Origin: an uncultured Mycoplasmatota bacterium
Lineage (GTDB): Bacteria > Bacillota_I > Bacilli_A > RF39 > UBA660
Assembly: GCA_947570175.1 (NCBI GenBank)
Contig: CANOTJ010000006.1
Location: forward strand, 1 to 64,000
Direction: 5' to 3'
Length of the DNA: 64,000 nucleotides
A program made the position numbers and the translations under genes. Below the pieces are notes generated by a model that saw nothing but the letters and a program-made list of their open reading frames with translations, ran no database searches and was not told where the DNA came from. Shown one piece after another: positions 6,915 to 30,100 of the stretch (positions are counted from its first letter, which is position 1; each line of letters opens with the position of its first letter).

Positions 6915-7700
6915 TTAGCTTAAGTCAATAATATTCGGTTTGTGTGAACGACTTTTTACTAAACTTTTGATTGATTGTTGAGCAGACGTAAACACAACAT
7001 CATTATCATGGGAATAATCATATAGTTGATTAATAATTTTCACTTTATTTCTTTCGTCGAAAGCATTCCACCATATGTCATCTAATAATAATGGGCTATC
7101 TTGGTTATAGCAATAATCCATTATTTGTTTTAAGTTAGCCAAACGTTCTGTAGCACTAGTTAAAATTTTAAAGCTATTTAAATCCTGGTACAAGCAAAAC
7201 AAAGGTGAATTGCTTTCTTCGGCAATAAATTTTAAAAGATTTGTTTTTCCTCTGTTATTTGGCCCAAAAACTAAATTAAAATTATTAATCTCTATTTGTT
7301 CACCATTGTACATATAAATTGTTTGTCTTTGAGGAACATATAAATCCAGTTTTCTTGTAATCTGCAAAAATTGTTCATGATTAATAAAATCTTTGAATGC
7401 GTAATTAAAATTATTTTTTATTGTTTCCTCATCTATATCATAATTTCTACTTTCATCAATTAAAAAATATAACATTAAATTTACAGGATATGTCTTATTA
7501 GAGTTTGAGAAAAATTCATCCGCTAATAAGTTACTCTGGAAATCAACGAAATCGTTAAAAACCTTAAATATTACATCTGAATTCCAATTTCTGATATCAA
7601 TTATAAAGTATTTACGAAAATCATTTTCATTTATTTTTGTTGTTATTTCCTGATAAGGGATAGTTAACTTCTTATATTGAAATTCTTTTAAAATTGTCAT
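6915..7700 (-). CDS. AAA/SMC-like ATP-binding protein
   Basis: A 261-residue protein with Walker A FGPNNRGKTNLL (about residues 143-154) and Walker B SPLLLDDIWWN (about 197-207). The ABC/SMC-type order, with a short gap between motifs and FTSAQQS after Walker B, resembles small OLD/RecF-like ATPases. The first 140 residues form a separate helical domain (IRNWNSDVIFKVFNDFVDFQSNL). The ATG at 7700 follows AGGAGG at a good distance; the longer frame to 7736 lacks one. It lies at the edge of the accessory island beside repeat element 1. Such solitary ATPases are often found in defence or toxin-immunity loci, but no partner nuclease is adjacent. Function is unknown beyond ATP binding. Confidence 0.6.
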   Translation of the reverse strand: MTILKEFQYKKLTIPYQEITTKINENDFRKYFIIDIRNWNSDVIFKVFNDFVDFQSNLLADEFFSNSNKTYPVNLMLYFLIDESRNYDIDEETIKNNFNYAFKDFINHEQFLQITRKLDLYVPQRQTIYMYNGEQIEINNFNLVFGPNNRGKTNLLKFIAEESNSPLFCLYQDLNSFKILTSATERLANLKQIMDYCYNQDSPLLLDDIWWNAFDERNKVKIINQLYDYSHDNDVVFTSAQQSIKSLVKSRSHKPNIIDLS

Positions 7701-7748
7701 TCTAAGTTTCCTCCTAACAATCATATATTCTATCATGGATTTATATAT

Positions 7749-7840
7749 AATAGAGCTCTTATAAATTTAAAATTTTGAGTTCTCTATTAATCTGGTGCGT
7801 GAGTAAACCACGTTTGGAAATTCGTATTAAAGTTAATTTC
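7749..7840 (-). repeat. Structured repeat element, copy 1
   Basis: Read on the plus strand: hairpin A (AATAGAG about 7749-7755 with CTCTATT about 7782-7788), then the shared core TTAATCTGGTGCG (7787-7799), then hairpin B (CGTG 7798-7801 with CACG 7809-7812). The same architecture with different stem sequences occurs at 24.9 and 28.15 kb. On the minus strand it reads as a stem ending GC-ACCA, then GATTAATA, then a terminator-like hairpin. It lies between the ATPase and the small-protein array. Confidence 0.5.
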
Positions 7841-7881
7841 TAAACTAATTATAACATTTGCAATCTTTATAATCAATAAAA

Positions 7882-8259
7882 TTACAACAAGGTAATAGTA
7901 GAATCGATAGAAATATTTTCTTCTGCATTAATATAAAAATCTATTTTAAAACATGTTTCATCAATTCTTGTTATATCACAATCGTACTCACTATTTATAA
8001 TTGATATCCAACCTCTATCATCTTCATATAAAATATCACTGATATATTCTTTTACATTTGTTTTGATGTTTACTTTCATTTGTTTAAACATCTCGTCTGA
8101 AAATGTAAATTCTAGTCCTACGAATTTATCATTATCTATATTAAAAGTGATAAAAGGTGATATACCTTGTCTTCTTTTCCCATTATGTGATACAGAAAAT
8201 TCTCCCCATGATACTTTAATATTATAATTGTTATATTCATTATTGTTTATTATTATCAC
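7882..8259 (-). CDS. Small strand-rich protein (array member 4)
   Basis: A 125-residue protein predicted almost entirely as beta strands (NIKVSWGEFSVSH, FITFNIDNDKFVGLEFTF, FKIDFYIN). I do not recognise it. Its opening and central segments loosely resemble those of the protein encoded at 8774-9190 (a short N-terminal strand, then a FxxNIDN-type strand pair). The start is GTG with a strong AAGGAGG ten bases upstream. It is the last gene of a four-gene minus-strand array, 21 bases after its helical neighbour. No signal or membrane segment. A role as an immunity-type protein is speculation. Confidence 0.55.
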   Translation of the reverse strand: MIIINNNEYNNYNIKVSWGEFSVSHNGKRRQGISPFITFNIDNDKFVGLEFTFSDEMFKQMKVNIKTNVKEYISDILYEDDRGWISIINSEYDCDITRIDETCFKIDFYINAEENISIDSTITLL

Positions 8260-8280
8260 AGTTAATCTTCCTCCTTTATT

Positions 8281-8715
8281 TTAAAAATTGTTATTGTTTA
8301 AAAAGTCAGCTATTTTTTTATCATAAGCATTTTTTATATTTTTTGAAAAGTCATAAGAAAATTGATTTAAATATTCTAAAACTAAATTCAAATGTTTATC
8401 AAATTCTTCATCTTTATCAATATTCTTTAAATATTTTGAAACCAATTTATTTCCGTTTACTCTCTTTACATAAAAATTTAATAGATTTGTATTTCCTATA
8501 TTTTCTTTTCCAGCATTTACTATTGAAATTAAATATTCTCTGGAAGCCGATGGTCCGTTAATACCTTGATCAAACATAATAAGTACACAACCAATGAATA
8601 TTTTATCTGTTCCATCAGAAGGCAAAGTTTTTTTAGTAAACTCAATTAATTTAGTTATCGATTTTGTTTTTTGGTATTCTTCTGAAAATAATTTTAAAAA
8701 TTTATTGATTATCAT
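8281..8715 (-). CDS. Small all-helical protein (array member 3)
   Basis: A 144-residue, mostly helical acidic/basic protein (FLKLFSEEYQKTKSITKLIEFTKKTL, then several amphipathic helices ending KNAYDKKIADFL). Family not recognised. The ATG follows AAAGGAG. It sits between two strand-rich proteins, giving a helical/strand/helical/strand order that suggests two related gene pairs. Probably cytoplasmic. Confidence 0.55.
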   Translation of the reverse strand: MIINKFLKLFSEEYQKTKSITKLIEFTKKTLPSDGTDKIFIGCVLIMFDQGINGPSASREYLISIVNAGKENIGNTNLLNFYVKRVNGNKLVSKYLKNIDKDEEFDKHLNLVLEYLNQFSYDFSKNIKNAYDKKIADFLNNNNF

Positions 8716-8773
8716 TCTAGCTCTCCTTTAATTTTTTTATTTAGGTACATTAATAAAAATAACCAAGTATTGA

Positions 8774-9190
8774 TTAAAAAGTATCTTTCATTTTTCTAAA
8801 ATCTAACACTAAAAAACCATCATATTTTATTTTAATTAATTCATCATTCAATTCAAAAAAAGTTTCAATTTTATTATCTTTTAATTCTTTTATTTTAAGT
8901 ATTATATTGCTTTCAATTTCTGTATCTAAAAATTTTTCTGTATCAAATACTTCAAAAAATACATTGTTTTCAAAAGGAACCTCATTATAATTTTTATTCA
9001 AAAAGCAATTTATATTATTATCTTTTTCAAATCCTGCATCTAAATTTATATAACCCTTTTCTTTATTGTCAATATTAATAAATGTTAACTTAATATTGAT
9101 ATTATAGCCTTTAATTCCATTTTTTGTATATGTTCCAACAAATATTTTTTGTTCAAGAACCTCAATATTTTTATTGTCTATATACAACAT
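8774..9190 (-). CDS. Small strand-rich protein (array member 2)
   Basis: A 138-residue protein, predicted mainly beta (KIFVGTYTKNG, NINIKLTFINIDNKEKGYINLDAG, LIKIKYDGFLVLDF). Family not recognised. It is similar in size and strand pattern to the product of 7882-8259. The ATG follows AAAGGAGG. Fifty-one bases separate it from the preceding helical gene, so it is probably co-transcribed. No catalytic motif is evident. Confidence 0.55.
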   Translation of the reverse strand: MLYIDNKNIEVLEQKIFVGTYTKNGIKGYNINIKLTFINIDNKEKGYINLDAGFEKDNNINCFLNKNYNEVPFENNVFFEVFDTEKFLDTEIESNIILKIKELKDNKIETFFELNDELIKIKYDGFLVLDFRKMKDTF

Positions 9191-9241
9191 AGATATTACC
9201 TCCTTTTATATTTTTAACTTAGATATCATATAATATCATTA

Positions 9242-9655
9242 TCAATCTTTTTTAATAAAACTTTCTAATTTTTTTCTTTCGTTCCTGTTAGTTAAAAAAT
9301 ATAATGATTTTGTATCTAGTAAAGCTTTAACATACTTCTTATCATTTAATGCTAGTATATTATCCACAATATATTTTTGATCTAATTCTTTCCAAAAATC
9401 ATTGCAAGCATCTAAAAAATCAGTTAATGTGGAGGCATCTTTATATTTTATAAAATAATCAATCAAAAATTTTTGATTATATTCATTATAGATACATGTT
9501 AAAAATATTATACAATATAAATTCTTATCATTTATTAATTTATTAACGAACTGCAAATGTTCTGTTTCTGTTAAATCTGTAATTAAAGTATAATATGGTC
9601 CGTTTTTATATTGTTCTAGTATCAATTGCTCTTTTTCAGTATATTCATTTAACAT
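9242..9655 (-). CDS. Small all-helical protein (array member 1)
   Basis: A 137-residue helical protein (LNEYTEKEQLILEQYK, then DLTETEHLQFVNKLINDKNLYCIIFL) with the look of a short helical-repeat protein. Family not recognised. The ribosome binding site is AGAAAGG, somewhat distant from the ATG. It is the first of four small genes on the minus strand, 34 bases after the ORF6N gene, so the whole set 10571-7882 may be one transcript. Confidence 0.55.
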   Translation of the reverse strand: MLNEYTEKEQLILEQYKNGPYYTLITDLTETEHLQFVNKLINDKNLYCIIFLTCIYNEYNQKFLIDYFIKYKDASTLTDFLDACNDFWKELDQKYIVDNILALNDKKYVKALLDTKSLYFLTNRNERKKLESFIKKD

Positions 9656-9689: not shown

Positions 9690-10571
9690 TTATTTAAAAA
9701 TTTTATTTACTAAATTGTTAATTAATTCGTTAGCTTCCATTTCATTAACAGCAAAACATTTTTTACCTAAATCTTTAAATGAGGCACCACATGAATATAA
9801 TTTTTTTCTATCTATAATTATAAATCTATCGTGAAATATATCAATATTTTTAAATTCTATATTAGAATACTGATTTTTGTATTTTTTCACCAAAATGTCA
9901 TCAATATTTTTGGAAATAATGACTATTTTCTTATCTACATTTTTTAAAATCTTCAATAACTCTTTTCCAGCATAATTATCAATAATAATTATTTCTTTTT
10001 TTGCAGTGTCAAATATATCTAATAAAAGCACATAAGCATCAAATATTTGCCCTTCAAAAAATATTGTATTAATTTTTCCTTTATTTTGCATTTTATTGAA
10101 AGTAGTCTCTAACTTTAATATTCTATTCTCATGATTTATTAACATTTCACTATTCATTAAACTACTTGAAACATATCTTCTTAATTTCACAAAAGCATCA
10201 ATAATTTGTACATTTACTTTAACTGCTATATCACTTTTAAGTAATCCAGACAACATCATTATTCCTTGTTCTGTTAAAACGTAAGGTAAATATCTTACAC
10301 CACCATGATTATTTTCACTTGAAATCGCAATTTGCGATCTCAAGTTATAAAATTCAGTTTCTGTTAATTGAAAACAAAAAGTATCGGGAAATCTTTTAAT
10401 ATTTCTTTTAATAACTTCATTAATTCTTCTTGTTTCTACTTGATAAAGTTTAGCAACATCTGATGATAACATTACTTGAACTCCTCTTATTTCATATATC
10501 ATATTTTCTACGTTATTATTAACATTAACAATATTATTATTTTCTTTTTCTTTAACTGTAATATTTGACAT
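9690..10571 (-). CDS. ORF6N-domain protein with phospholipase D-like C terminus
   Basis: A 293-residue protein. Residues about 25-115 match the ORF6N domain (YEIRGVQVMLSSDVAKLYQVETRRINEVIKRN, then RFPDTFCFQLTETEF and YVLTEQGIMMLSGLL), a DNA-binding module of phage antirepressors. A coiled linker (about 125-165) leads to a C-terminal domain with HDRFIIID and SCGASFKDLG, resembling one half of the phospholipase D HxK(x4)D fold, here with Arg in place of Lys. Similar ORF6N-plus-PLD proteins are common in mobile elements of Firmicutes. It starts with GGGAGG eight bases before the ATG and leads the small-protein array. It is likely a regulator carried by the island. Confidence 0.75.
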   Translation of the reverse strand: MSNITVKEKENNNIVNVNNNVENMIYEIRGVQVMLSSDVAKLYQVETRRINEVIKRNIKRFPDTFCFQLTETEFYNLRSQIAISSENNHGGVRYLPYVLTEQGIMMLSGLLKSDIAVKVNVQIIDAFVKLRRYVSSSLMNSEMLINHENRILKLETTFNKMQNKGKINTIFFEGQIFDAYVLLLDIFDTAKKEIIIIDNYAGKELLKILKNVDKKIVIISKNIDDILVKKYKNQYSNIEFKNIDIFHDRFIIIDRKKLYSCGASFKDLGKKCFAVNEMEANELINNLVNKIFK

Positions 10572-10994
10572 TTAAAACCTCCCTAATTAATAAATTTAAA
10601 TATATAAACGATAGTTAAATCTTTATACCTATTATAATACTTTTTACAATCATTTTAAAGTTTACAATGTACATTTATTTAAAATAGATTTGATTATTTC
10701 TTATATTTTCATGTACCAACTCAAGAGTCACTTTTTTAGCAGGATAACATCGTCTGACAACAACTCGCCAGTGGCGAGTTTACAAGGGTTTCCGTGTATG
10801 ACATTTTTATTTTTGTATGACAATTGTAAGACATAAAATTAAGAAAAAAGTTAAAATATTTGCTATATTTACCTATTTGTATTACAAATGTCTGACAAAA
10901 TCAACTATTTTTGGTAGCTAAAATATACCGATTTGTACCAAAGTTTAAGTTTTTTTACAAATCATATAACTTTAGCTGGTACAAAATTGTGTAC
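10572..10994. other. Non-coding 423-base gap containing a transfer-origin-like element
   Basis: No gene. It contains the hairpin element described separately (10738-10780) and repeated GTATGACA motifs about 10795-10830. It lies directly beyond the 3' end of the decayed recombinase fragment, where element ends often sit. Confidence 0.5.
10738..10780 (-). repeat. Transfer-origin-like hairpin element, copy 1
   Basis: AGCAGGATAA (10738-10747) is followed at fixed spacing by the near-perfect inverted repeat AACTCGCCAGTGGCGAGTT (10762-10780). On the minus strand this reads hairpin then TTATCCTGCT. That contains TATCCTGC, which fits the nic consensus YATCCTG|Y known for MOBP relaxases. A second copy, inverted, lies at 15308-15350, with a compensatory base pair in the stem. 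The nic assignment is inference. Confidence 0.5.
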
Positions 10995-12338
10995 CTAAAT
11001 ATTAACATTTATAATATTAATTGGACTAACAGGCACTTCTATTAATCCATAATTAGTTATTTTAAATTTATCAATGATAGGTATTAATTTAAATGGTTCA
11101 TTAAAATAATTACCTTTATTATATTTCAGCATAAATTCTTTATCATTAATTTGTTCTTTCTTTAATTCTTGATAATCAATAGGAAAGCTTAATTGTAATT
11201 TTTTAATATACTTCTTTATTTCTTCTCTAGTCATAGGTACTGATACTTCAATGTTTATAGATACATTATTTGCTTTTATTTCTTGGTTTCTATTAATACC
11301 TCCATTATTAAAAAGATTTGCATATTCTTCAATAAATGTTTCCCTGAAATTTATATGTTTTATTTTTATATTCTTATCATTTTTAATAACTTCTATATTA
11401 TCAATATAACTTGTTATTAATTCTTGTTTTTCTGATATAGATAATTCATTCCATTTGGCTTGAAAATTTAATTCGTAAAAAGGACTGATAAAGCATTTAA
11501 TACTTTCTATATCTCTTTTAAGTATTATATCTTCAAATGTAAAATTGTATTCTTCTAATTCTTGGGCCTCTTTAATTTTCTTTTCAACATCAATAATTCT
11601 ATTTTCTAAGTATGTTTTATCTTCTTTATATTCCTCTAAACTAATTATTTTATTTAAATACGCATCCTTAAGTCTTATTACTTTATCTTTTAAAGTATTT
11701 AGCTCTTTAGAAAGTAATTCATTTGTATTTGTAATTTTGTGTTTCAAAAGTGGAGCAAAGTGTTTTTTAACGATAGAATCATATTCTATTATTTGACTTA
11801 TTTCATAAACTAATAATTCTACTAATTTATTCTCTCTAACATAAGTTTTACATTTATTACACTGATAATAAATATATTTCCTCTTACTTCCATCTGGAGC
11901 TTTACAAGCCATTATTTTATGGCAATGGGGACAAATAATTTTTTGAAAGAAGACATAATCGTTTCTACTTGTATAATTTCTTATGTTTTTTCTAGTTTGT
12001 TCCTGACATTCTTCCCATAACTTTTTAGAAATAATTGGCTCTACAACATTTTCATAAGAAATAGGATTTTCTGTCCTAGTACCACTTACAAAATCACCTT
12101 TATAAAGTGGGTTAGATAATATTTTTAATATAGTTGTGTCATACCATTTTTTATTTAATACTTTTTCTTTATTAAATATATTAGCAATAGCCTGATATGA
12201 TTTACCTTTATAATACAAATCAAATATTCTTTTTACAATTTCACTTTAAGCAGGATTAATAATTAACTTTTTATCTTTTCTCATAAACCCTAGTGTTTTT
12301 CTTACAGGAATATGTCTACCATAGACATGATGGCCTCA
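10995..12338 (-). pseudogene. Large serine recombinase, C-terminal part, decayed
   Basis: The open frame 12218-10995 (about 407 residues) is the recombinase and zinc-ribbon part of a large serine integrase. It has YKGKSYQAIANIFNKE, an IICPHCHKIMACKAPDG and YYQCNKCKTYV zinc ribbon, and a long coiled coil (about residues 145-220). Upstream, the same frame continues through an in-frame TAA at about 12246 to GRHIPVRKTLGFMRKDKKL (about 12338), the usual joint after the catalytic domain. The catalytic domain is missing here. A separate N-terminal piece lies at 13021-13479, with an acetyltransferase gene between them. It is non-functional as an integrase. Confidence 0.75.
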
Positions 12339-12359: not shown

Positions 12360-12388
12360 TAGACTATTGCCACTTTTTAATGTATAAT
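12360..12388 (+). promoter_or_regulatory. Probable promoter of the acetyltransferase gene
   Basis: TAGACT (12360-12365), a 17-base spacer and TATAAT (12383-12388), 25 bases before the coding start at 12413. Confidence 0.6.
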
Positions 12389-12412
12389 TATATTAGTTTA
12401 AAGGAGTTAAAT

Positions 12413-12880
12413 ATGTTAAATAAAATAAAAATAATAGATAATATGAATCCCCCTAACTTTCAGTTTAATAAGAATAACGATTTTATAGAATTTTTATTGC
12501 CATTGACAAAGTATAAAGAGCAATATCTTATGGTGAAGCAAAAAGATAAAAAATACAACAGTATTCATTATTATATTATTAGTAGTGGATATCAGGTGAT
12601 TGGTAGATTTGATATAAGTGACAATTTAGAAAATGAAACTTGTGGCATAACATACCACATTATTGATGAGTTTCAAAACAGAGGAATTGGTCAAACTGTA
12701 TTAGGTGTTGTTGTAAATGATATTTTTAGTCATCAAGTAAACTTGATTAAAATTCTTCCTATTAATGAAAAATCTGCTCATATAGCTGAAAAAAATGGAT
12801 TTACTCCAAGATCAAAAAGAATTTACGAATTAAATTCATTAGATTATCAAGAAATTCAATCTAATTGTAAAAAAAAATAG
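12413..12880 (+). CDS. GNAT-family N-acetyltransferase
   Basis: A 155-residue protein with the acetyl-CoA-binding motif A segment EFQNRGIGQTVLGVVV preceded by the strand CGITYHII, and a motif B-like NEKSAHIAEKNGFTP near the end. It fits the RimJ/RimL-type GNAT fold. I chose the ATG at 12413 because AAAGGAG lies six bases upstream; the frame opens earlier without one. It has its own promoter and terminator, and lies on the opposite strand between two broken recombinase fragments. That suggests cargo that entered the recombinase locus. The acceptor substrate is unknown; drug, protein or polyamine are all possible. Confidence 0.75.
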   Translation: MLNKIKIIDNMNPPNFQFNKNNDFIEFLLPLTKYKEQYLMVKQKDKKYNSIHYYIISSGYQVIGRFDISDNLENETCGITYHIIDEFQNRGIGQTVLGVVVNDIFSHQVNLIKILPINEKSAHIAEKNGFTPRSKRIYELNSLDYQEIQSNCKKK

Positions 12881-13020: not shown

Positions 13021-13479
13021 TTATGTGTATGGAAACTGTCCTGCTTGAATCGCGCCCACCATACCGAACTTCGTTCGTTCTGAACATTTTTCTATTTCAT
13101 TTTGACTAACTGTTGTAAGTAATCTTGCAATCATTCTTCCATTAGCATTTGTTGTATTTATATCATCATTCGCACAATCTAAATAGGCATTATTTTCATC
13201 TAAAAATTTCATTATATTTTCCCAGTCATAAACACTTCTTGTTAATCTATCAAGTTTTAAAACAACAATAGTATTACATTTTTTGTTTCTAATATCTGCT
13301 TTTAATTTTTCAAATGCTGGTCTATGATTTCCAGTTTTGGCACTGATTCCAGCATCTTTGTAAACTTTATAAATCTCATAACCCTTGTATTCACACATTG
13401 CTTTTAATCTTTTTTCTTGTTCTAGTAAACTAAAACCCTCACGATCCTGATCTTCTGTGCTAACTCTTACGGAACACAT
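13021..13479 (-). pseudogene. Serine recombinase, N-terminal catalytic domain only
   Basis: A 152-residue fragment equal to the resolvase/invertase domain of a large serine integrase. It has the catalytic Ser7 in VRVSTEDQDREG, the KLDRLTRSVYDW segment with active-site arginines, and SQNEIEKCSERTKFGMVGAI on the long E helix. It stops at GQFPYT, where an intact protein would continue into the recombinase domain. It cannot simply be joined to the fragment ending near 12338, because both carry the joint sequence (GQFPYT against GRHIPVRKTLGF). They may therefore come from two different integrases or from a rearrangement. Expected to be inactive alone. Confidence 0.7.
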
Positions 13480-22417: not shown

Positions 22418-22625
22418 CTTAAGTTAAGGACGTGATTATACGTGGTACCACCTTATTTTGTAGTTATACTACCTCAGGGACTAAAACGCGTCACCGTTAT
22501 AAGTTTGGCTTATACAACTCCAAAGACGAATTCATAAAAGATTATTATTAGTTTTCACCAGCCACTAACTCTCTTTTAATAATTACTTTTACTACTACTT
22601 CTTTATCATAGTTTTTCAAAAACTA
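22418..22625 (-). promoter_or_regulatory. T-box riboswitch controlling pheST (Phe)
   Basis: The minus strand carries the T-box core AAGGTGGTACCACG, with the UGGN bulge that pairs to the uncharged tRNA 3' end. A terminator (GTCCTTAACTTAAGGAT, then nine T) follows, just before pheS. A TTC specifier triplet within ATGAATTCGTC (about 22528-22533) fits Phe. Low charged tRNA-Phe would stabilise the antiterminator and switch pheST on. A promoter TTGAAA / 17 bases / TAAACT is seen at 22654-22631. Confidence 0.95.
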
Positions 22626-22664
22626 AATATAGTTTATCACAACTATTATATGTTTTCAAGCAAA

Positions 22665-23864
22665 TTATTTTCTTTTTTGTTCTTTAAATGATAATTGATA
22701 TAGTTCATTTAATAAATCGTTATTACAAAAATACTCATCTGTCAATTCTAAATGAAGGAATTCGTCCATTTCATATGGATATAAAGTAATTTGAATATTA
22801 TTAAAATGATAAGCTAATCTTCTAAAATTTCTTATTAATTTATCACTTAGGTTCCTTTGAATATTATAATGATCTTCTGTACTAGCTATATATTCTGTTT
22901 CTATTTTTTTACTTTCTATATTTTTATTCTTTTTCATCTCTTTTACTTTTAAATATTTTAGTTCTTTAGCATTCCAACGAATTGGAAGAAATGGTGCTAC
23001 TTCAATTTCCTTTATTTCATGTTTCTGTAGTATTGATAAAAAAATAGTTGTTATAACACAAAAACTTGGTACAATGCCTGTTAAGTTTTCTGGGGATTCT
23101 ATATTGTCAATATTTTCCTCCTTCTCAAAATTTTGATTAACTTTATTTAAACACCGTTTAATTCTTTTAAAAAAGGGATTATTATTAATACCATTATTTT
23201 TGTTTTGAATAGCCATAATCGTACACTTACCATTATCAAGACCAAATCGTAATTTTGGAAAAATGAATCTTTCGTTTGAATTTTCTTCATTTATCATTTC
23301 CACATGAAAAGAATATGGTGTTTCTTCATAAATAGGTTCTTTTTGTACAATTATTTTAATGTTGCTTTTCAAAATGGAAGAAGTTCCAATAATTTTATCA
23401 TTTAAATAAGAATCAAAAGTAGTATCCTTTAGAAACTGGGTTCGTTTTTCTATAAAAGCAATTGGATTATTAAAGTCTTTTTCTGTAGCATTAGCCCAAA
23501 GTAAAGTTAAAATTGTCTTATCTTCATATTCTATAGAATCATAATAGTTCTTATCATAAAAATCTCTAGCATATATTAAATACTCCTCTAGTTTGGCAAG
23601 AATTTGATCAAGATCATGAATCATTAAAGTAGGAATGAATAAATTTCTATCTTCTTTCGCATATACAGAAATAGAATTTTTGTTAATTGTTATATTAATA
23701 TTCATATTTTGTCTAGACAAAACAGTTTTAATTTTATTTAGCATTAAAACTTTGTTATCATTAACTGTATTAATAATACTATTAAATACTATGTTATAAG
23801 GTCTATCGGTATATACTCTTTTGTTTGCTGCTTCTAATATAATTTGATAGAATAATTCTTCCAT
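22665..23864 (-). CDS. Hypothetical protein, 399 residues
   Basis: Not recognised. It begins with a helical segment (MEELFYQIILEAANKRVYT). The middle has alternating strands and charged helices (SFHVEMINEENSNERFIFPK, LRFGLDNGKCTIMAIQNKN). A conserved-looking block is IEVAPFLPIRWNAKELKYLK. The end is rich in Glu and Leu. No signal peptide or membrane span. It lies directly upstream of the pheST leader on the same strand but is separate from it. The PP2C gene's terminator precedes it by only about 45 bases, so it is probably transcribed on its own. Confidence 0.6.
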   Translation of the reverse strand: MEELFYQIILEAANKRVYTDRPYNIVFNSIINTVNDNKVLMLNKIKTVLSRQNMNINITINKNSISVYAKEDRNLFIPTLMIHDLDQILAKLEEYLIYARDFYDKNYYDSIEYEDKTILTLLWANATEKDFNNPIAFIEKRTQFLKDTTFDSYLNDKIIGTSSILKSNIKIIVQKEPIYEETPYSFHVEMINEENSNERFIFPKLRFGLDNGKCTIMAIQNKNNGINNNPFFKRIKRCLNKVNQNFEKEENIDNIESPENLTGIVPSFCVITTIFLSILQKHEIKEIEVAPFLPIRWNAKELKYLKVKEMKKNKNIESKKIETEYIASTEDHYNIQRNLSDKLIRNFRRLAYHFNNIQITLYPYEMDEFLHLELTDEYFCNNDLLNELYQLSFKEQKRK

Positions 23865-23908
23865 AAAACCACCTATATCAATTATATCAACTTTTTATAG
23901 AAAGACAA

Positions 23909-23933
23909 GAAAAAAGCCTTCAAAATAAAGACT
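23909..23933 (-). terminator. Terminator after the PP2C-like gene
   Basis: On the minus strand AGTCTT and AAGGCT (one G-T pair) form a short stem followed by TTTTTT, two bases after the stop codon. Confidence 0.55.
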
Positions 23934-23934
23934 T

Positions 23935-24768
23935 TTAAATTTTAAATAGTACAAGTGTTTTTTCCTTACCATATTTTTCATAATCACTTTGGGATTTCAT
24001 TTCTATATAATTTTCAAATTTATTTTTGTCAAAATTAATTATTTGTGAAATAAATTCATTATCACCTAAAAATTCAGTAAAGCCATCACTATATACTAAA
24101 ACTATATCACCATCTGATAACTCTATTTGACCTGATTTTATAAAATTTATAGCAGAATCTTCACCAGTAATGGCACCATATGAAACGCATGTACCATTTT
24201 GGATATTATTCAGATTATTTCTATAATCTCTTCTAACTATAACCCGTGCTTCTGGCAAATACCAAGGAATTCCTATTTTATTTATAAAAGGATCACTATA
24301 CAGTTGTTTATCATCTTCTGTTTGAAATTTAATATTTCCTGAATTATCATATATAATTACTCCACAATCGCAAATATAAGCATATGCTAATATATTGCCC
24401 TCAATACTAACACAAGCAGCAACAGCACTAAAATAATCATTCTCCAAATAATCACAATTAGGAATATATATATTATTTAGTTTCTTAACACTGTCATTGC
24501 ATTTAATTAATCTGTTTTTTAATGTTCCTGCAGTACTTGAAAACGTATCACAAATTTCCTTAGCAGCTAATTCTGCTCCACTTGGTCTTGGATATTTCTT
24601 TACAAATTCACTTTGGGAGCAAGTTGATAAATTACTAATTCCAATAGGATCTCTAGTTACTCCATCAGCAACTATTGCTTCATTTTCTGAGGCATAAAAT
24701 TGATCTTCTACTGGAAAATCATAATTTGATGTTTTGATATTATCAAACGTATTTTTATATACTAACAT
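23935..24768 (-). CDS. PP2C-like protein phosphatase
   Basis: About 277 residues with the ordered motifs of PPM/PP2C phosphatases: an early Asp/Glu block (VEDQF, then ENEAIVADGVTRD), a central strand pair (AYAYICDCGVIIYD), SYGAITGE, and LSDGDIVLVYSDGFTEFL near the end, where Asp residues bind the two metal ions. It would remove phosphate from Ser/Thr of a partner protein. The usual first-strand R is not evident, so activity is uncertain. The start is within the cluster GTG/ATG/ATG, with AGGTG upstream of the last. No kinase is adjacent, although two kinase-like genes lie at 36-38 kb. Repeat element 2 lies just upstream. Confidence 0.75.
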   Translation of the reverse strand: MLVYKNTFDNIKTSNYDFPVEDQFYASENEAIVADGVTRDPIGISNLSTCSQSEFVKKYPRPSGAELAAKEICDTFSSTAGTLKNRLIKCNDSVKKLNNIYIPNCDYLENDYFSAVAACVSIEGNILAYAYICDCGVIIYDNSGNIKFQTEDDKQLYSDPFINKIGIPWYLPEARVIVRRDYRNNLNNIQNGTCVSYGAITGEDSAINFIKSGQIELSDGDIVLVYSDGFTEFLGDNEFISQIINFDKNKFENYIEMKSQSDYEKYGKEKTLVLFKI

Positions 24769-24887
24769 ATTTATCATCACCTGTTATCTATATGCATAAT
24801 GATTTTGTCATTACGAAAGTGTATTTTACTAAATTGAAAAAATTAATTTAACATCTATGGTTATTCTAGCATAACTTTAAATAAACT

Positions 24888-24993
24888 AAAACTCAAAACC
24901 CTGTAAGAAAAGAGGTTTGAGTTTGATATCAATCTGGTGCGGGTGACGAGGTGGTTTACAGCTTACCCGCAAAAGACAATTGATTTATATCAA
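24888..24993 (-). repeat. Structured repeat element, copy 2
   Basis: Plus-strand order: hairpin A (AAACTCAAA 24888-24896 with TTTGAGTTT 24916-24924), core GATATCAATCTGGTGCG (24925-24941), hairpin B (GCGGGT 24939-24944 with ACCCGC 24965-24970), and an outer arm ATTGATTTATATCAA (24979-24993) that can pair with TTGATATCAAT (24923-24933). On the minus strand, a promoter-like TTGCTG / 17 bases / TAAAAT lies upstream, so it may be transcribed and end at hairpin A. Confidence 0.6.
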
Positions 24994-25058
24994 TTTTATC
25001 AAATAATAGAAAAATCAGCAATTTCATGCTAATTTAATAAAATCCTTTTATTATATAT

Positions 25059-25835
25059 CTAATTTTTTAATTTTGTTCTAACCTTAACATCTACATATAT
25101 TAAATCGTGGTCAGATGTTCCTTTGGAATCAATTATTCCTGCATCATTAATATCCCAGTCGCTTGGTATAAATATATGATCTAATTTTTTATTTATTCCC
25201 CCACTATTATGCCATGTATCACCTTCTATATGCACATGTGATATTCCAAAATCTTTAATGCTATTTGTAAAACTGTCAAACTCTTCATTTCCTAATTCCA
25301 TATTAAAATCTCCTGTAATAATTATTGGATACATATCAGAATATTTTTTTATAATTTTTTTTAATTCCTCGAGTTGCCTTATTTGAATAGATGGAACTTG
25401 ATAATCAAGATGTGTATTAATCATACACATAAAATTATTATTACCATTATCAAAAACAATTATTGTAGCTATCCTAGGCATAATAGACATTTTTATAATA
25501 GATTTTTTTAAATCATTAAAATTATCTGCAATCCATGGTAAATGAAATGTTTTTTCTTCAATAACTTTTTTATTTGTAATTATATTATTATTTTCATTAT
25601 ATGGCAATTTTTTTAACAAGCTTCCATATCTATAGTTACCATAAAAATTATAATTTTCTAATTGTAATTTGATAGCATTTACATAGTTAATTGTTAATTC
25701 TTGCGTTCCTAGTAAATCAAATTCATTTTCCTTAATAATTTCCGATACAATTGAAGCATTAGAAATACCATCTTTCCTAATACCACCATGACTATTAATA
25801 GAATTATCTTTTGTGTTAAAACTACCTATTTTCAT
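25059..25835 (-). CDS. Endonuclease/exonuclease/phosphatase-fold protein
   Basis: A 258-residue protein with the full motif set of the EEP superfamily (DNase I/AP-endonuclease-like): GSFNTK at the start, DLLGTQEL (metal-binding Glu), NTHLD, IITGDFNME (catalytic Asp and Asn), KLDHIFIP and GTSDHDLIYVDV (catalytic His). Members cut nucleic acids or hydrolyse phosphodiesters and phospholipids. No signal peptide, so it probably acts in the cytoplasm on nucleic acid or nucleotides. It is encoded in the accessory region between repeat elements 2 and 3. Substrate unknown. Confidence 0.85.
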   Translation of the reverse strand: MKIGSFNTKDNSINSHGGIRKDGISNASIVSEIIKENEFDLLGTQELTINYVNAIKLQLENYNFYGNYRYGSLLKKLPYNENNNIITNKKVIEEKTFHLPWIADNFNDLKKSIIKMSIMPRIATIIVFDNGNNNFMCMINTHLDYQVPSIQIRQLEELKKIIKKYSDMYPIIITGDFNMELGNEEFDSFTNSIKDFGISHVHIEGDTWHNSGGINKKLDHIFIPSDWDINDAGIIDSKGTSDHDLIYVDVKVRTKLKN

Positions 25836-25892
25836 CTAATATTCCCCCTTAAATTGCCACTTATTCTAACATATTTTATTTTATCTGTCAAA

Positions 25893-26463
25893 TTATCTAA
25901 ATGCTCTTTTTATATTATTTTCCACTGTTTTTCTATCAACATTTCTATATTCTTCATTTGTATATTTATTTAATCTATTCATATCAAAATTGAATAAAAC
26001 ATTTTTTGACTTATATAATTCTACAATTCTATTTTCTTGCATTCGAATCTCTATATTCTCAACACACTTTATAACATCTAAAATATTAGGGATTTTATTT
26101 ATAAAATCTTTTATTGTTGTATTCATATTTACTCTATAGTTATAAACAGGTTCATCTATATGAAATAATTTTTCACTACTTGCAATAATTACAGGCATAA
26201 TCACCAAATCTTCCAATTTTGTTTTTTCAGGAAATCTTAAATCTCCAATTAAATCTCTGCTTATTAATTTATTACCAATTCCAGGTGTTTCAGTCACAAT
26301 ATAATCTTTATTTTCTTTTGCTATAGTATACATTTTTTCCAAAATATCAGCTTTTAAGTAATCATCTGCATCTACAAATTTTATAAATTCTCCATTTGCA
26401 TTTTCTAAACCTATATTTCTAGCAGAACCAGCTCCACCATTTTCCTTATCAAAAATTATTAAT
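25893..26463 (-). pseudogene. Family 2 glycosyltransferase, 5'-truncated relic
   Basis: The frame from an in-frame TAA near 26463 encodes typical GT2 sequence: IIFDKENGGAGSARNIGLENA, GEFIKFVDADDYL with the DxD metal-binding motif, then ISRDLIGDLRFPEKTKLEDL. The first 60 or so residues of the nucleotide-sugar-binding fold are missing. An internal ATG at 26342 gives only the C-terminal 149 residues. The upstream sequence belongs to an unrelated small frame. It is therefore a broken glycosyltransferase, left from a capsule or wall-polysaccharide gene. Confidence 0.75.
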
Positions 26464-26697
26464 TTTTATATTTGTAGTTGATCCTCTCTTATTTAGAATA
26501 TATTTCATTAGTTTTGAGAATTCCATTTTTCTTTCTTTTGTAAAACTGCTTTTCTTTAATCTTTCTATAATTTTTAATTCTTCTGAATCTATTTTATGCC
26601 TTATTAATTCAATTTCTTCTTTATTAAATTTTACTACTAATTTAACTCCTTTTATTCTTAGTTTTATTACCTCATTTTTAAATGAAAAACTACACAT
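26449..26697 (-). CDS. Small hypothetical protein, doubtful start
   Basis: An 82-codon frame whose only ATG (26697) lies inside the terminator hairpin of the preceding gene. AAAGGAG occurs internally before VKFNKEEIELIRHKIDSEEL, but no standard start codon follows at the right distance. The central part is helical and charged. It runs into the truncated glycosyltransferase and overlaps it. It may be a remnant that lost its start. Confidence 0.35.
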   Translation of the reverse strand: MCSFSFKNEVIKLRIKGVKLVVKFNKEEIELIRHKIDSEELKIIERLKKSSFTKERKMEFSKLMKYILNKRGSTTNIKINNF

Positions 26698-26710
26698 TTT
26701 TTATGTAGTT
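26685..26710 (-). terminator. Terminator of the ATP-grasp gene
   Basis: On the minus strand AACTACAT pairs with ATGTGTAGTT, followed by a T run, about 40 bases after the stop. Confidence 0.65.
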
Positions 26711-26748
26711 CTTAAACTGATGACATTGAGAAGGGCGTACAACAACTT

Positions 26749-28008
26749 TTAAATATGCTTCCTGTTTTCTGAAATTAACGATTGTTTCTTTTGCATTGTT
26801 AAAGCCAAAGCATTTAATCTTATTCTCATATCAAGCAATTGATTAGTTGTATAAAAATCAGTTGCATTTGAATCATAGGGAATATTATATTTCTCGGCAT
26901 AGGAATATAACATAGGATATTCATGCTCTTCCAGATATTTCCACACCTTTTCTTCTGCATCATAAATAAAGTCTATACCACAAATTGCTCCAACTTCACG
27001 TTTACAATTAATGGCTATATTGATACAGCCTTTCATTACGTCTTCTGGGACAAGTGCATCATTCGGATCAATCCCATGTTCAAGTAAAATTTCTTGTTCA
27101 AGTTCAGAGTAACTATCTTTGCCAAGCAAAATACTATTTCCGCCTGCTATTGTATTTGAAACAATACATTCACTACCTAAGAAATATGGTGAGGTGGGAT
27201 CTGACAAAAATTTATCAAAAAGACCATAATGATTTTCTTCATTACTTGTAGAAAATTTGGCATATTTGAGACTTGCCGCTAAAATATCACCAGAAGATGA
27301 GGTAAGAACTCTTAAAGAAGTGTTATATTTTGTCGGTGTTTTGATAAATTTTTGCAGTCTCATATCTTTATAAAATTCTTTTTTATAATCTATAAAATTA
27401 ATACATATTCCCCTATTGGATTTACCATTTTCATCAAATTCTAAGTCTGGATAACAAGACCGCCATGCATGTTTTACTTTTTCTATTTTCCTTTTTCGAG
27501 CATAAAGATTTATTTCATCATAAAACTTTCTTAGTACTGCAAGTTGCTTAGGTGTTCTTATTATGAATTTTTCTTCGCCTCCTTGACTTGCCTCATTTTT
27601 AAGAACTAGTGGCAGAGAAGGTAAAACTTCTGGAAATGAATCAGGGGGGAATGATACACTAATTGGCTCTGTTATTCCTTCATTTATAAGATAATAGTAA
27701 ATTTTACTTTTCTTTTTATTACTATAATCTTCTTTGGTCTTATTAACTTGTGTATCTAAACATGGCGTAAAGAAAAAAGCATCGTTACTAACTGTGCTGC
27801 TATCTGTCACGATTTTGTAACCACTTTCATATAGATTTTTAAACATATCTTTATATGCTTCATAAACAGGGTTACTTTGATTAATTGGAATATCAGGCAT
27901 AATAATAGTATATAACTCTCTATTTATCCATTCTGGTTTAATATAAAGCTCTTCTGGATTAATATAAATTTCTTGCCCATTGCCTTGTGGCAATTGAACA
28001 TATTCCAT
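26749..28008 (-). CDS. ATP-grasp-like protein
   Basis: A 419-residue protein. The order LPLVLKNEASQGGEEKFIIRTP (strand, Lys, Gly loop), SLRVLTSSSGDILAASLKYA and AICGIDFIYDAEEKVWKYLEEHEYP resembles the ATP-grasp core of carboxylate-amine ligases, where the last block carries the metal-binding acidic residue and Asn/His. Such enzymes join an acyl-phosphate to an amine or thiol. Residues 1-140 form an extra N-terminal domain with a short Pro-rich stretch. The assignment is by motif pattern and moderately sure. It lies between repeat elements 2 and 3, with no obvious biosynthetic partners nearby. Substrate unknown. Confidence 0.6.
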   Translation of the reverse strand: MEYVQLPQGNGQEIYINPEELYIKPEWINRELYTIIMPDIPINQSNPVYEAYKDMFKNLYESGYKIVTDSSTVSNDAFFFTPCLDTQVNKTKEDYSNKKKSKIYYYLINEGITEPISVSFPPDSFPEVLPSLPLVLKNEASQGGEEKFIIRTPKQLAVLRKFYDEINLYARKRKIEKVKHAWRSCYPDLEFDENGKSNRGICINFIDYKKEFYKDMRLQKFIKTPTKYNTSLRVLTSSSGDILAASLKYAKFSTSNEENHYGLFDKFLSDPTSPYFLGSECIVSNTIAGGNSILLGKDSYSELEQEILLEHGIDPNDALVPEDVMKGCINIAINCKREVGAICGIDFIYDAEEKVWKYLEEHEYPMLYSYAEKYNIPYDSNATDFYTTNQLLDMRIRLNALALTMQKKQSLISENRKHI

Positions 28009-28126
28009 AAATATTTCACCTCGTTTAATTATATACTGACATAGTCAATATACAAGTATGTTTTCTAAATTGACATAATCCAATTCAGAGATTGATAATT
28101 ATCATAATACAAATTTAGTTATATTA

Positions 28127-28220
28127 AAACTCGAAACATAAAACTTAGAGTTTGGTATCAATCTGGTGCGAGTGCCGTAGATATCTACAACTCTTGCATA
28201 GTATGAAATGATATAAATAT
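28127..28220 (-). repeat. Structured repeat element, copy 3
   Basis: Hairpin A (AAACTC 28127-28132 with GAGTTT 28148-28153), core GGTATCAATCTGGTGCG (28154-28170), hairpin B (GCGAGT 28168-28173 with ACTC-TTGC 28190-28197) enclosing the perfect palindrome GTAGATATCTAC (28177-28188), then an outer arm TGATATAAATATCA. The stems differ from copies 1 and 2 but the layout is the same. Confidence 0.6.
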
Positions 28221-28263
28221 CACTCAATAAAATTATTATACATTTAATTTAGTATTTCATCAA

Positions 28264-28815
28264 TTATATTTTTCTGTTCATTTTAGTTAGCACTAATTGT
28301 TTTCCAAAAGTTTGGCTTTGTAAAACTTCATAATTTTCTTGAACATCATCAGAAAGGGAAGCAGTAGTCATACTAAATGAAGCATTTGGCATTATTAAAT
28401 ACATTCCATTTTCAGAATGTCTTCCAAAAATCCTTTGTACTGAATCATCGTGAGGATAAGTTAAACGAATCCAATCTGTGAATAATAATATTCCTTCTTC
28501 ATTTAATCCATATTTTTCATAAGTTTCAAAATCTCTAGAAATATCTTTATATTTTTCTTCTAACATTTCATAACTTTGTGGATTCCATATTACAAAGTCT
28601 TCTACATATCCATCTATAAGTTTAACTCTTTTTAAATAATCCGTATAATATTTTAAATCTTGTAATTCATAATTGGCTCTTTTACAACTAAGATTTCCTG
28701 ATTTAACTTGTCCAAAGCCATTTAAACCTGTATCAAATTGACCATATCTAAAATCTATATGATCTTCTATTTTAATATTACCATGTTCACTATATGCATT
28801 ATAAATCTTTAACAT
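28264..28815 (-). CDS. Hypothetical protein, 183 residues
   Basis: Not recognised. It has MLKIYNAYSEHGNIKIEDHIDFRYG at the N terminus, a helical middle (YEMLEEKYKDISRDFETYEKYG), and strands near the end (GMYLIMPNASFSMTTASL). I chose the ATG at 28815, following AAAAGGAG; an upstream extension to 28869 lacks a site. Probably cytoplasmic. It lies between repeat element 3 and a broken Mob-like gene in the accessory region. Confidence 0.5.
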   Translation of the reverse strand: MLKIYNAYSEHGNIKIEDHIDFRYGQFDTGLNGFGQVKSGNLSCKRANYELQDLKYYTDYLKRVKLIDGYVEDFVIWNPQSYEMLEEKYKDISRDFETYEKYGLNEEGILLFTDWIRLTYPHDDSVQRIFGRHSENGMYLIMPNASFSMTTASLSDDVQENYEVLQSQTFGKQLVLTKMNRKI

Positions 28816-28888
28816 AACATCAGCTCCTTTTGTGAGAATTATTTTAATATAAAAACTATAAAAATGCAAGCAGTTTAGAGTGTTTTAA

Positions 28889-29422
28889 TTAAATTTCTAT
28901 CTCAAAATTATCTTTTTCTTTACCATTATCGTTATTTTTACAATAATCGTAATTATCTTTGATACTAAACACCTCTTTATCATCTATAACTCCATGAGTA
29001 TATAAACTTCTCGAAAAGTCCATATATTTTTCTCTAGTTTCTTTTTTAGAAAATATCCTATTTTTGATAAGTTTAATAAGATTAACAAACTTATCTTTTA
29101 AATGTTCAAAACTATGCTTTAAAGAACGATTTTCCTCTTTTAATTCTTCAATTTCATCATCTTTTTTATCTATTTTCTTTTCAAGAGTAGATACTCTTAA
29201 ATTGAAAGCATTATTGTTTTCAGTAAGCGTTTTAATTTTATCTCTATTATTATTTAATTCATCATCATCAATATTATTAAGAGTAATAAATAATTCTTTC
29301 ATTTTTTTATATTCTTCATCTAATTTCTATTTAAAAGCTTCCCATTCATTTTCAAAAACTTCTTTTGTGACGACTTGTCCTAAACTATTATAATAAGTTC
29401 TATTTTTAATAATAAATTTCAT
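28889..29422 (-). pseudogene. Coiled-coil gene with in-frame TAG; Mob/Pre-like C-terminal part
   Basis: The first part runs from ATG 29422 (KNRTYYNSLGQVVTKEVFEN) to WEAFK and then an amber TAG at about 29327. The same frame continues at once as KLDEEYKKMKELFITLNNID through a long coiled coil (about 70 residues) to SLYTHGVIDDKEVFSIKD. The coiled coil and end resemble the C-terminal tail of plasmid mobilisation/recombination (Mob/Pre) proteins. No relaxase catalytic motif is present. One base change (CAG to TAG) would explain the break. The second part could also start on its own at ATG 29302. Confidence 0.55.
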
Positions 29423-29499
29423 ATAAAATCTCTCTTTCGTATATTTTTTTGACAATATACAAGTGTGTTTACTAAATTGCCAAAATTTAGTAAAATTTA

Positions 29500-29528
29500 T
29501 TGTAACAAGCTTAATCATCTAGTATAAT
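29500..29528 (+). promoter_or_regulatory. Promoter of the small membrane-peptide gene
   Basis: TTGTAA (29500-29505), exactly 17 bases, TATAAT (29523-29528). The predicted start of transcription, near 29535, is just before the 5' pairing arm at 29553-29564. Confidence 0.7.
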
Positions 29529-29599
29529 TTTTATAGGAATATTTAGTTAGTTTAGGTACTATTCTCCTTTACTTTATAAAAGTGGAAGGAGGTGACATT

Positions 29600-29692
29600 A
29601 TGAGAAAGAAAGACGAATATCTTTGCACCATCATAATACTCCTTATTATTGTGATTTTAATCATTCTAATAAAAATAGTACCAACTGTTTAA
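29600..29692 (+). CDS. 30-residue membrane peptide, type I toxin-like
   Basis: A tiny plus-strand gene among minus-strand ones. It has an excellent ribosome binding site (AAGGAGGTGACATT before the ATG). The peptide has a charged N terminus (MRKKDEY), one hydrophobic Ile/Leu-rich membrane span (about residues 9-26), and ends KIVPTV. The transcript has a strong promoter and terminator, and its 5' arm TAGGTACTATTC (29553-29564) is perfectly complementary to GAATAGTACCTA (29717-29728). A further stem, AGTACC/GGTACT, spans the stop codon. Long-range 5'-3' pairing and a short hydrophobic peptide are hallmarks of type I toxin mRNAs. The toxin role is inference, and I saw no clear antisense promoter. 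Confidence 0.6.
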   Translation: MRKKDEYLCTIIILLIIVILIILIKIVPTV

Positions 29693-29715
29693 GTCGGTAC
29701 TAATACTGTTTTAAC

Positions 29716-29756
29716 GGAATAGTACCTAGCGCTTCAAAACTAGATATTCCTTTTTT
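29716..29756 (+). terminator. Terminator of the small membrane-peptide transcript
   Basis: GGAATA (29716-29721) with TATTCC (29745-29750), reinforced by an inner CTAG/CTAG pair, then six T. Its 5' arm is also part of the sequence complementary to the mRNA 5' end. Confidence 0.75.
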
Positions 29757-29828
29757 ATTTTATGCAAGTTTCCTTGACATATTCATAATAACATAAAAAC
29801 GACTTTTTGACAAGTCGCTTTGCTTAAT

Positions 29829-29845
29829 ACTCGAAGAGTTCGAGT
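29829..29845 (-). terminator. Hairpin after tRNA-Glu
   Basis: ACTCGAA (29829-29835) with TTCGAGT (29839-29845), about 13 bases beyond the tRNA 3' end. Its layout (hairpin, then AGTATCACTCTGGTG at the tRNA end) matches repeat elements 2 and 3. Confidence 0.6.
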
Positions 29846-29857
29846 TTAGTATCACTC

Positions 29858-29935
29858 TGGTGACCAGTACGGGATTCGAACCCGTGAATGCTGCCGTGAA
29901 AGGGCAGTGTGTTAAGCCACTTCACCAACTGGCCA
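29858..29935 (-). tRNA. tRNA-Glu (anticodon TTC)
   Basis: Acceptor TGGCCAG/CTGGTCA with encoded CCA. The anticodon loop CTTTCAC is closed by CTGCC/GGCAG, giving TTC. The T-arm is CGGGTTCGAACCCG. It is the last gene of the Asn-Asn-Glu operon. Confidence 0.93.
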
Positions 29936-29939
29936 TAAA

Positions 29940-30015
29940 TGGCGCCTAATGTAGGACTCGAACCTACGACCTATCGGTTAACAGCCGAGTGCTCTACCAA
30001 CTGAGCTAATTAGGC
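29940..30015 (-). tRNA. tRNA-Asn (anticodon GTT), copy 2 of the operon
   Basis: Acceptor GCCTAAT/ATTAGGC, then discriminator G and CCA. The anticodon loop CTGTTAA gives GTT, and the T-arm is TAGGTTCGAGTCCTA. Confidence 0.95.
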
Positions 30016-30024
30016 ATAACTTAA

Positions 30025-30100
30025 TGGCGCCCAATGTAGGACTCGAACCTACGACCTATCGGTTAACAGCCGAGTGCTCTACCAACTGAGCTAATTGGGC
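30025..30100 (-). tRNA. tRNA-Asn (anticodon GTT), copy 1 of the operon
   Basis: Identical to its neighbour except for a compensated acceptor pair: GCCCAAT/ATTGGGC here, GCCTAAT/ATTAGGC in the neighbour. It is the first gene of the operon. Confidence 0.95.

Follow-up and report, generated by a model that had tools for sequence, protein, structure and literature searches.

Integron gene cassettes consist of one gene or a small number of genes flanked by recurring sites and form tandem arrays, the anchor used by integrons being attI. ICEs and tycheposons, which are tRNA-targeting integrative elements, insert at the 3' ends of tRNA genes. Among candidate defense genes, the PDC systems are described in a 2026 report (PMC12988326) as unvalidated, mostly single-gene candidates derived from "guilt by embedding"; the term is absent from PMC9252829.

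The locus described here lies in a 64,000-nucleotide stretch (positions 1 to 64,000 of contig CANOTJ010000006.1, GenBank assembly GCA_947570175.1) of an uncultured Mycoplasmatota bacterium, and this whole stretch is called the window. Its leading gene encodes an ORF6N-domain protein that matches the PADLOC profile PDC-S05 with an E value of 5.3e-92 over nearly its whole length (residues 8 to 291). PDC-S05 is a single-gene candidate, whereas the ORF6N gene here heads what looks like an operon. With a probability of about 0.55, we read the locus as an ORF6N-led accessory operon, probably of protein pairs, that is carried by tRNA-anchored gene cassettes.

Gene content and organization of the array

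Four minus-strand genes of 125 to 144 residues follow the ORF6N gene. They are given the working labels H1, S1, H2, and S2 (H, helical; S, strand-rich), and S3, H3, and BIG are working labels for related protein groups at other loci.

10631..10659, minus strand: possible promoter of the array, TTTAAA-17-TATAAT, from a consensus scan only
9690..10571, minus strand: leading gene of the array, a 293-aa ORF6N-domain protein (Pfam ORF6N, 5.1e-32)
9242..9655, minus strand: H1, predicted helix-rich protein, 137 aa, ATG start
8774..9190, minus strand: S1, predicted strand-rich protein, 138 aa, ATG start
8281..8715, minus strand: H2, predicted helical protein, 144 aa, ATG start
7882..8259, minus strand: S2, predicted small beta-barrel, 125 aa, GTG start
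7785..7863, minus strand: CCA-ended boundary site 3' of S2, ...CACGCACCA / GATTAATA...
6915..7736, minus strand: P-loop ATPase, judged to lie outside the array unit

The ORF6N gene and H1 are separated by 34 bases, and the gaps within the array are 51 (H1-S1), 58 (S1-H2), and 21 (H2-S2) bases. These ORF coordinates agree with the original prediction, which had placed four minus-strand genes of this size behind an ORF6N regulator with gaps of 21 to 58 bases. A purine-rich ribosome-binding sequence can be read ahead of every start of the four genes, which together look like a single operon. This reading is drawn from spacing and strand, because no terminator-like site was found between 6600 and 11000 and promoter-like sites around the array are as frequent as in shuffles, not more. 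H1, S1, H2, and S2 are regarded as real genes because they have relatives in other genomes. Curated family cut-offs in Pfam and NCBIfam are reached by none of the four, and PADLOC and PHROGs give no significant match for them, in keeping with the original prediction, which recognized no family for any of them.

Beyond the left end of the array lies a broken serine recombinase gene on the minus strand, with a resolvase domain at 13021-13479 and a recombinase domain at 10995-12218; a 166-aa gene on the opposite strand (12380-12880) separates the two parts.

Relations among the four proteins and predicted folds

The two strand-rich proteins had been suspected of a distant likeness, and profile comparison bears this out: hhalign gives 27.7% with the first members and 69.7% (E value of 4e-5) with 11 and 24 members, in an alignment that spans almost end to end. 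We take S1 and S2 as distant relatives. No comparison of profiles relates H1 to H2 (hhalign, 0.1% to 0.4%), so the gene order does not reflect a clean two-gene duplication; of the duplication originally suggested, the strand-rich half is supported and the helical half is not. H1 groups instead with the BIG proteins, helical proteins of 240 to 297 aa (hhalign, 99.2%; E value of 1e-19), and appears helix-rich, its helicity being read from sequence. The BIG group also takes in a C-terminal domain that follows the H2 domain in two loci (L130 and L131; E values of about 2e-23 and 8e-23), which means that an H1-type domain is naturally fused to H2. Strand-rich and helical parts are also combined in the 294-aa proteins of two further loci (L177 and L179), the N-terminal part being strand-rich and the C-terminal domain helical and of BIG type.

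A model of S2 built from 22 aligned sequences covers 125 residues with a mean pLDDT of 96.1 and a pTM of 0.88, and it consists of strands throughout except for one short helix. Foldseek returned no match below an E value of 0.001, the best being YceI-like proteins (0.07 to 0.11). In VIA-align, the model is closest to 2x32_A (Z of 9.8, 2.1 Å over 102 residues), 2x34_A (Z of 9.8), and 3q34_A (Z of 9.6), followed by LpqH (Z of 8.6, 8.2, and 8.1), and the next matches drop to 6.9. No YceI sequence-profile match appears in Pfam at E values up to 1. By its fold, and not by family membership, S2 is confidently predicted to be a small YceI-like barrel: it has the barrel fold in common with the YceI-like and calycin-like barrels (2x32, 3q34, and LpqH) but no sequence match to them, and no signal peptide was seen by eye. 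Hydrophobic molecules are the ligands of YceI-like barrels.

The model of an H2 relative that is fused to a strand-rich half (L107) is all-helical and confident over approximately residues 1 to 143, the H2 part, and poor in the remainder; the fold of the strand-rich half was set aside for low model confidence. A structure search with this model, which is barely a test of H2, listed no match at a Z of 5 or more. The alternation of helical and strand-rich proteins proposed originally thus agrees with the all-beta model of S2, the relationship of S1 to it, the helical model of the H2 family, and the helix-rich family of H1. From fold alone, one may guess that the S proteins are binding barrels and the H proteins their scaffolds.

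Pairing of helical and strand-rich genes

Genes were counted as adjacent when they lay on one strand within 250 bases, each distinct place being counted once, among nonredundant members numbering 13 for H1, 11 for S1, 49 for H2, and 24 for S2. H1 and S1 are adjacent in three places (the window, G110, and G115), with S1 directly after H1, and H2 and S2 in four (the window, L084, G035, and L086). H2 is followed by the 175-aa strand-rich S3 in two places (L106 and L121), S2 precedes a BIG-type helical protein in one, and in L107, H2 and S3 are fused into one 298-aa protein. The H2 and S3 frames overlap by 8 bases in L106, so a small frame change could explain the L107 fusion. In our reading, S3 may resemble S2 in sequence; no profile link was found between the strand-rich half of L107 and S1 or S2. 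In L066, a 393-aa repeat protein comes after S2.

Set against the member counts, these adjacency counts indicate that most members have no partner next door, and the pairing of helical and strand-rich genes appears to be favored yet optional. The original prediction of two interacting protein pairs gains from the recurring H1-S1 and H2-S2 adjacency and from the L107 fusion and is weakened by the many relatives that stand alone; most do occur singly in unrelated contexts, the finding that had been named in advance as speaking against it. An array of ordinary lineage-specific accessory genes, unpaired and neighbors by chance, would account for these single relatives in varied places and for the full four-gene order, which among the loci examined is found in the window only. 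We consider such an origin quite unlikely, since the helical-strand adjacency recurs with short gaps and an unchanged order, one protein is fused, and an ORF6N leader gene is held in common.

In six loci (L106, L107, L108, L110, L119, and L121), H2 sits 15 to 17 bases after a common membrane protein gene. Just before that gene in L106, L107, and L119 lies what we take to be a BceAB-type ABC transporter.

Distribution

The window genome is a 1.38-Mb assembly in 49 contigs that is 90% complete. In a sample of 117 genomes of the order, including its own, relatives of H1 are present in 9, S1 in 7, H2 in 11, and S2 in 11. A class-wide sample of 326 genomes contains S2 in four and H2 in five, every one from the window's own family. 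Larger family samples gave S2 in 23/319, H1 in 20/213, and S1 in 11/213. These counts include some weak or broken matches, and longer proteins make up about half of those to H1. An H2 profile scan of named assemblies yielded 49 loci, the hosts of which are nearly all uncultured Bacilli, Mycoplasma, Tenericutes, or similar; one locus is from Candidatus Coprovivens, a Bacilli incertae sedis genus. The H1, S1, H2, and S2 families are restricted to this lineage.

H2 and S2 have no match in the phage collection, S2 has none in plasmids, and the H1, S1, and S2 profiles have none in IMG/VR. H2 matches only one IMG/VR contig (L003, 4.5 kb), at the start of which a piece of H2 (97% DNA identity) runs directly into the 3' end of S2 as a deletion remnant. 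The contig also bears an ORF that is presumably a tyrosine-type integrase-like gene. A phage or plasmid origin was rejected on the basis of these absences, IMG/VR yielding L003 only. Copies of H2 and S2 that are close to those of the window and broken by frame changes occur at L051/L085 (G035), a decaying array.

The ORF6N gene, the ATPase, and defense

An ORF6N relative lies near H2 in 4 of the 49 H2 loci. The order is ORF6N-H2 in L083 and ORF6N-H1-H2-S2 in L084, where S2 is a short 70-aa frame; in L113 and L118, ORF6N is followed by Ham1-like (L113) or uracil-DNA-glycosylase-like genes and then by H2. Remnants of ORF6N stand ahead of H2-S2 in L085 and of H1-S1 in L046. ORF6N is therefore a recurring neighbor with a variable set of genes behind it.

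The P-loop ATPase, with a likely true start near 7700 after AGGAGG, occurs in its own genome only (1/117). It scores below the cut-offs of the curated models for the BREX protein BrxF (23.4 bits; cut-off, 50) and the anti-phage ATPase IteA (17.6; cut-off, 510). It was rejected as a member of the unit, since relatives are found in 0/116 other genomes of the order and it lies on the far side of the boundary site that separates it from S2. The ATPase is a bystander, and the anti-phage module first proposed to include it is not supported in this respect.

An anti-phage operon could still be led by the ORF6N protein, as a controller, sensor, or effector with the helical/barrel pairs as its partners. 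The strong PDC-S05 match and the recurrence of ORF6N beside these genes point in this direction, as do the uracil-DNA-glycosylase-like genes with ORF6N in L113 and L118 (with Ham1-like in L113 as well) and the PDC-S05 model itself, which matches 3/122 neighbor proteins against 0/121 distant genes. We regard this explanation as unlikely, since restriction and Abi matches are equally common among distant genes, most H and S relatives have no ORF6N neighbor, and the PDC candidates are described as unvalidated (PMC12988326). The enrichment of defense genes near H and S genes is slight at best. The array may have a role in defense or stress, the defense setting being reasonable but weakly supported.

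The original prediction had also offered an immunity-gene array, in which orphan immunity genes against the secreted toxins of neighbors would have been collected singly. These genes are indeed small, variable, single or clustered, and narrow in range, and there is a very weak match of H1 to Colicin_Pyocin immunity (E value of 0.43, below the cut-off). This explanation is nevertheless improbable and found no support: no toxin family is among the 25 commonest of 135 Pfam families in 122 neighbor proteins, and immunity families all fall below the cut-off in Pfam and NCBIfam. Immunity genes, moreover, are seldom fused and seldom keep a fixed helical-strand order, which counts further against it.

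Boundary sites

DNA comparison identified a stretch directly 3' of S2 (window 7725-7867) that in L047 lies after S1 and in L084 flanks, in part, ORF6N-H1-H2-S2 on both sides. The window site ends in CACGCACCA, followed by GATTAATA, and a junction search found the same arrangement directly behind tRNA genes. CCA-ended sites of this kind also precede many unrelated genes. The arrays of the window and L047 have such a site on the right side and that of L084 on both, the right-hand one reading CACTA; to the left of ORF6N, the window shows no CACCA site.

Three more minus-strand sites are present in the window, at 24927, 28156, and 29850; the site at 29850 is the tRNA-Glu 3' end. The 13-base motif with up to 2 mismatches occurs 5 times in the window against 1.76 expected, which is not striking alone; the longer site pattern occurs 6 times in the window's own genome and 0 times in the reversed control. 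No exact match to the site pattern was found in IMG/VR, and neither the sites nor the leaders correspond to an Rfam family, all rows being at chance level.

The minus strand of window 22600-30100 carries tRNA-Glu (29858) and then the same-strand sites 29850, 28156, and 24927, and the genes between and after these sites encode proteins of 137/201, 419/82/149/258, and 281 aa. This region looks like a tRNA-anchored cassette array. A T-box leader (Rfam) lies at 22423-22618 on the minus strand, and the ORF behind it is presumably PheS-like.

Cassette anatomy and sharp ends

Sites were sought in 115 nonredundant loci (1.14 Mb), mostly chosen for H or S genes, and 28 were found. The following ORF is on the same strand at 26/27 sites, often about 145 bases on, and the preceding gene is also on the same strand at 13/14 non-tRNA sites. 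Unrelated genes have in common a leader of about 145 bases behind the junction, with a hairpin and then a TATAAT-like box, and 15/22 leader cores lie behind the junction. A longer version of about 410 to 440 bases, up to 91% identical, gave no match in Rfam when one of its copies was scanned closely; it may belong to the mobile unit or be a structured RNA. Its copies and the H2 relatives directly behind RNA genes are as follows.

Longer leader copies: L089 10247, L104 7551, L086 261, window 29850, L085 4374, L096 78
H2 behind tRNA-Thr(GGT): L089, L094
H2 behind tRNA-Thr(CGT): L091
H2 behind tRNA-Leu: L095
H2 behind tmRNA: L093

The left ends of all five H2 units are the CACCA of the tRNA or tmRNA. 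At the right end, four of the five (L089, L091, L093, and L094) have a CACCA of their own, followed by four different sequences, and L095 has no clear CACCA. For most pairs of these five loci, the alignment starts at -5 to -10, where their host RNA genes differ from each other; two pairs start at -25 and -29 and two tRNA-Thr pairs at -83. The alignments run until close to the next CACCA. L104, which has another leader, aligns only within the unit. Over all sites, 22/29 filter-passing alignments begin at the junction, and the 7/29 that cross it all join like sites, either tRNAs for the same amino acid or non-tRNA with non-tRNA.

A tRNA or tmRNA gene lies within 700 bases upstream of H2 in 9/49 cases, against 6/474 for other genes of the same loci (Fisher, 9e-7), and upstream of S2 in 3/20 against 2/178 (Fisher, 0.008). 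The corresponding counts are 1/10 against 0/68 for S1 and 0/8 against 0/68 for H1; the relatives of both S1 and H1 are mainly behind ordinary genes without a CACCA site. Conversely, the junction is present on 12/37 distinct last-in-row tRNA/tmRNA genes, with looser variants on some others. Single-site folds are clearly better than shuffles in 5/12 cases (z of -2.3 to -3.4), and a consensus structure of 18 pairs was obtained for one site class and none for another. An RNA gene is not claimed for the sites, because 7/12 do not fold clearly better than shuffles and one class has no consensus structure.

Among ten cargo proteins scanned, matches were to NUDIX, glyoxalase, GNAT, HD, and transglutaminase-like families, with one sub-threshold SpoIIE match, and four had no match at all. 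Behind sites L206 9997 and L209 2440, on different contigs of the window's own genome, lie two NUDIX genes that resemble each other (84.9% DNA identity across about 800 bases), and their identity crosses the junction.

Proposed model and comparison with known systems

In the reading that we prefer, the operon would encode two helical and two small beta-barrel proteins, with H1 pairing with S1 and H2 with S2, probably physically. These gut Bacilli would have a gene-cassette system that carries the operon as cargo: short units would be inserted immediately behind the CACCA that ends a tRNA/tmRNA gene or, alternatively, behind the CCA-ended site at the right end of the previous unit, so that arrays would build up behind tRNA genes. 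Operon content would shift by gene gain and loss, giving ORF6N-H2, ORF6N-H1-H2-S2, H1-S1, and H2-S2. H2 is best seen as moving as a cassette in related genomes, and the window operon as ending at a cassette boundary. Mobility of the window array itself is an inference, as its left end has no site and is followed by the broken serine recombinase gene.

More tentatively, and with slightly more doubt than belief, we suggest that these loci belong to undescribed integron-like cassette arrays in reduced-genome gut Bacilli, with tRNA/tmRNA CCA anchors, CCA-ended mimics as right ends, and H1-S1-H2-S2 cargo that forms a new paired helical/barrel family. In the literature searched, which mostly excludes subscription journals, we found no account of single-gene cassettes anchored at tRNA genes in these bacteria. 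If the suggestion is right, small-genome gut bacteria would swap single genes via tRNA-end sites, the sites would offer a handle for listing the whole cargo pool of this lineage, our knowledge of which comes almost entirely from metagenomes, and the array would provide ready candidate accessory or defense proteins, pairwise.

Compared with ICEs and tycheposons, with which they share the tRNA 3' end, the H2 units are short (about 0.6 kb), contain a single gene, and show no integrase of their own. The cassette units differ from integron cassettes in anchoring at tRNA/tmRNA 3' ends instead of attI, in bearing their own leader with a hairpin and promoter-like sequence, and, with respect to attC-type folds, in having one site class without a consensus fold. 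The likeness to integron cassettes lies in recurring sites that enclose a gene or a few genes, in tandem arrays, and in similar cargo (NUDIX, glyoxalase, GNAT, and genes without assignment). The sharp ends at a recurring site that characterize integron cassettes are likewise found in the H2 units of related genomes, at both ends in four of five.
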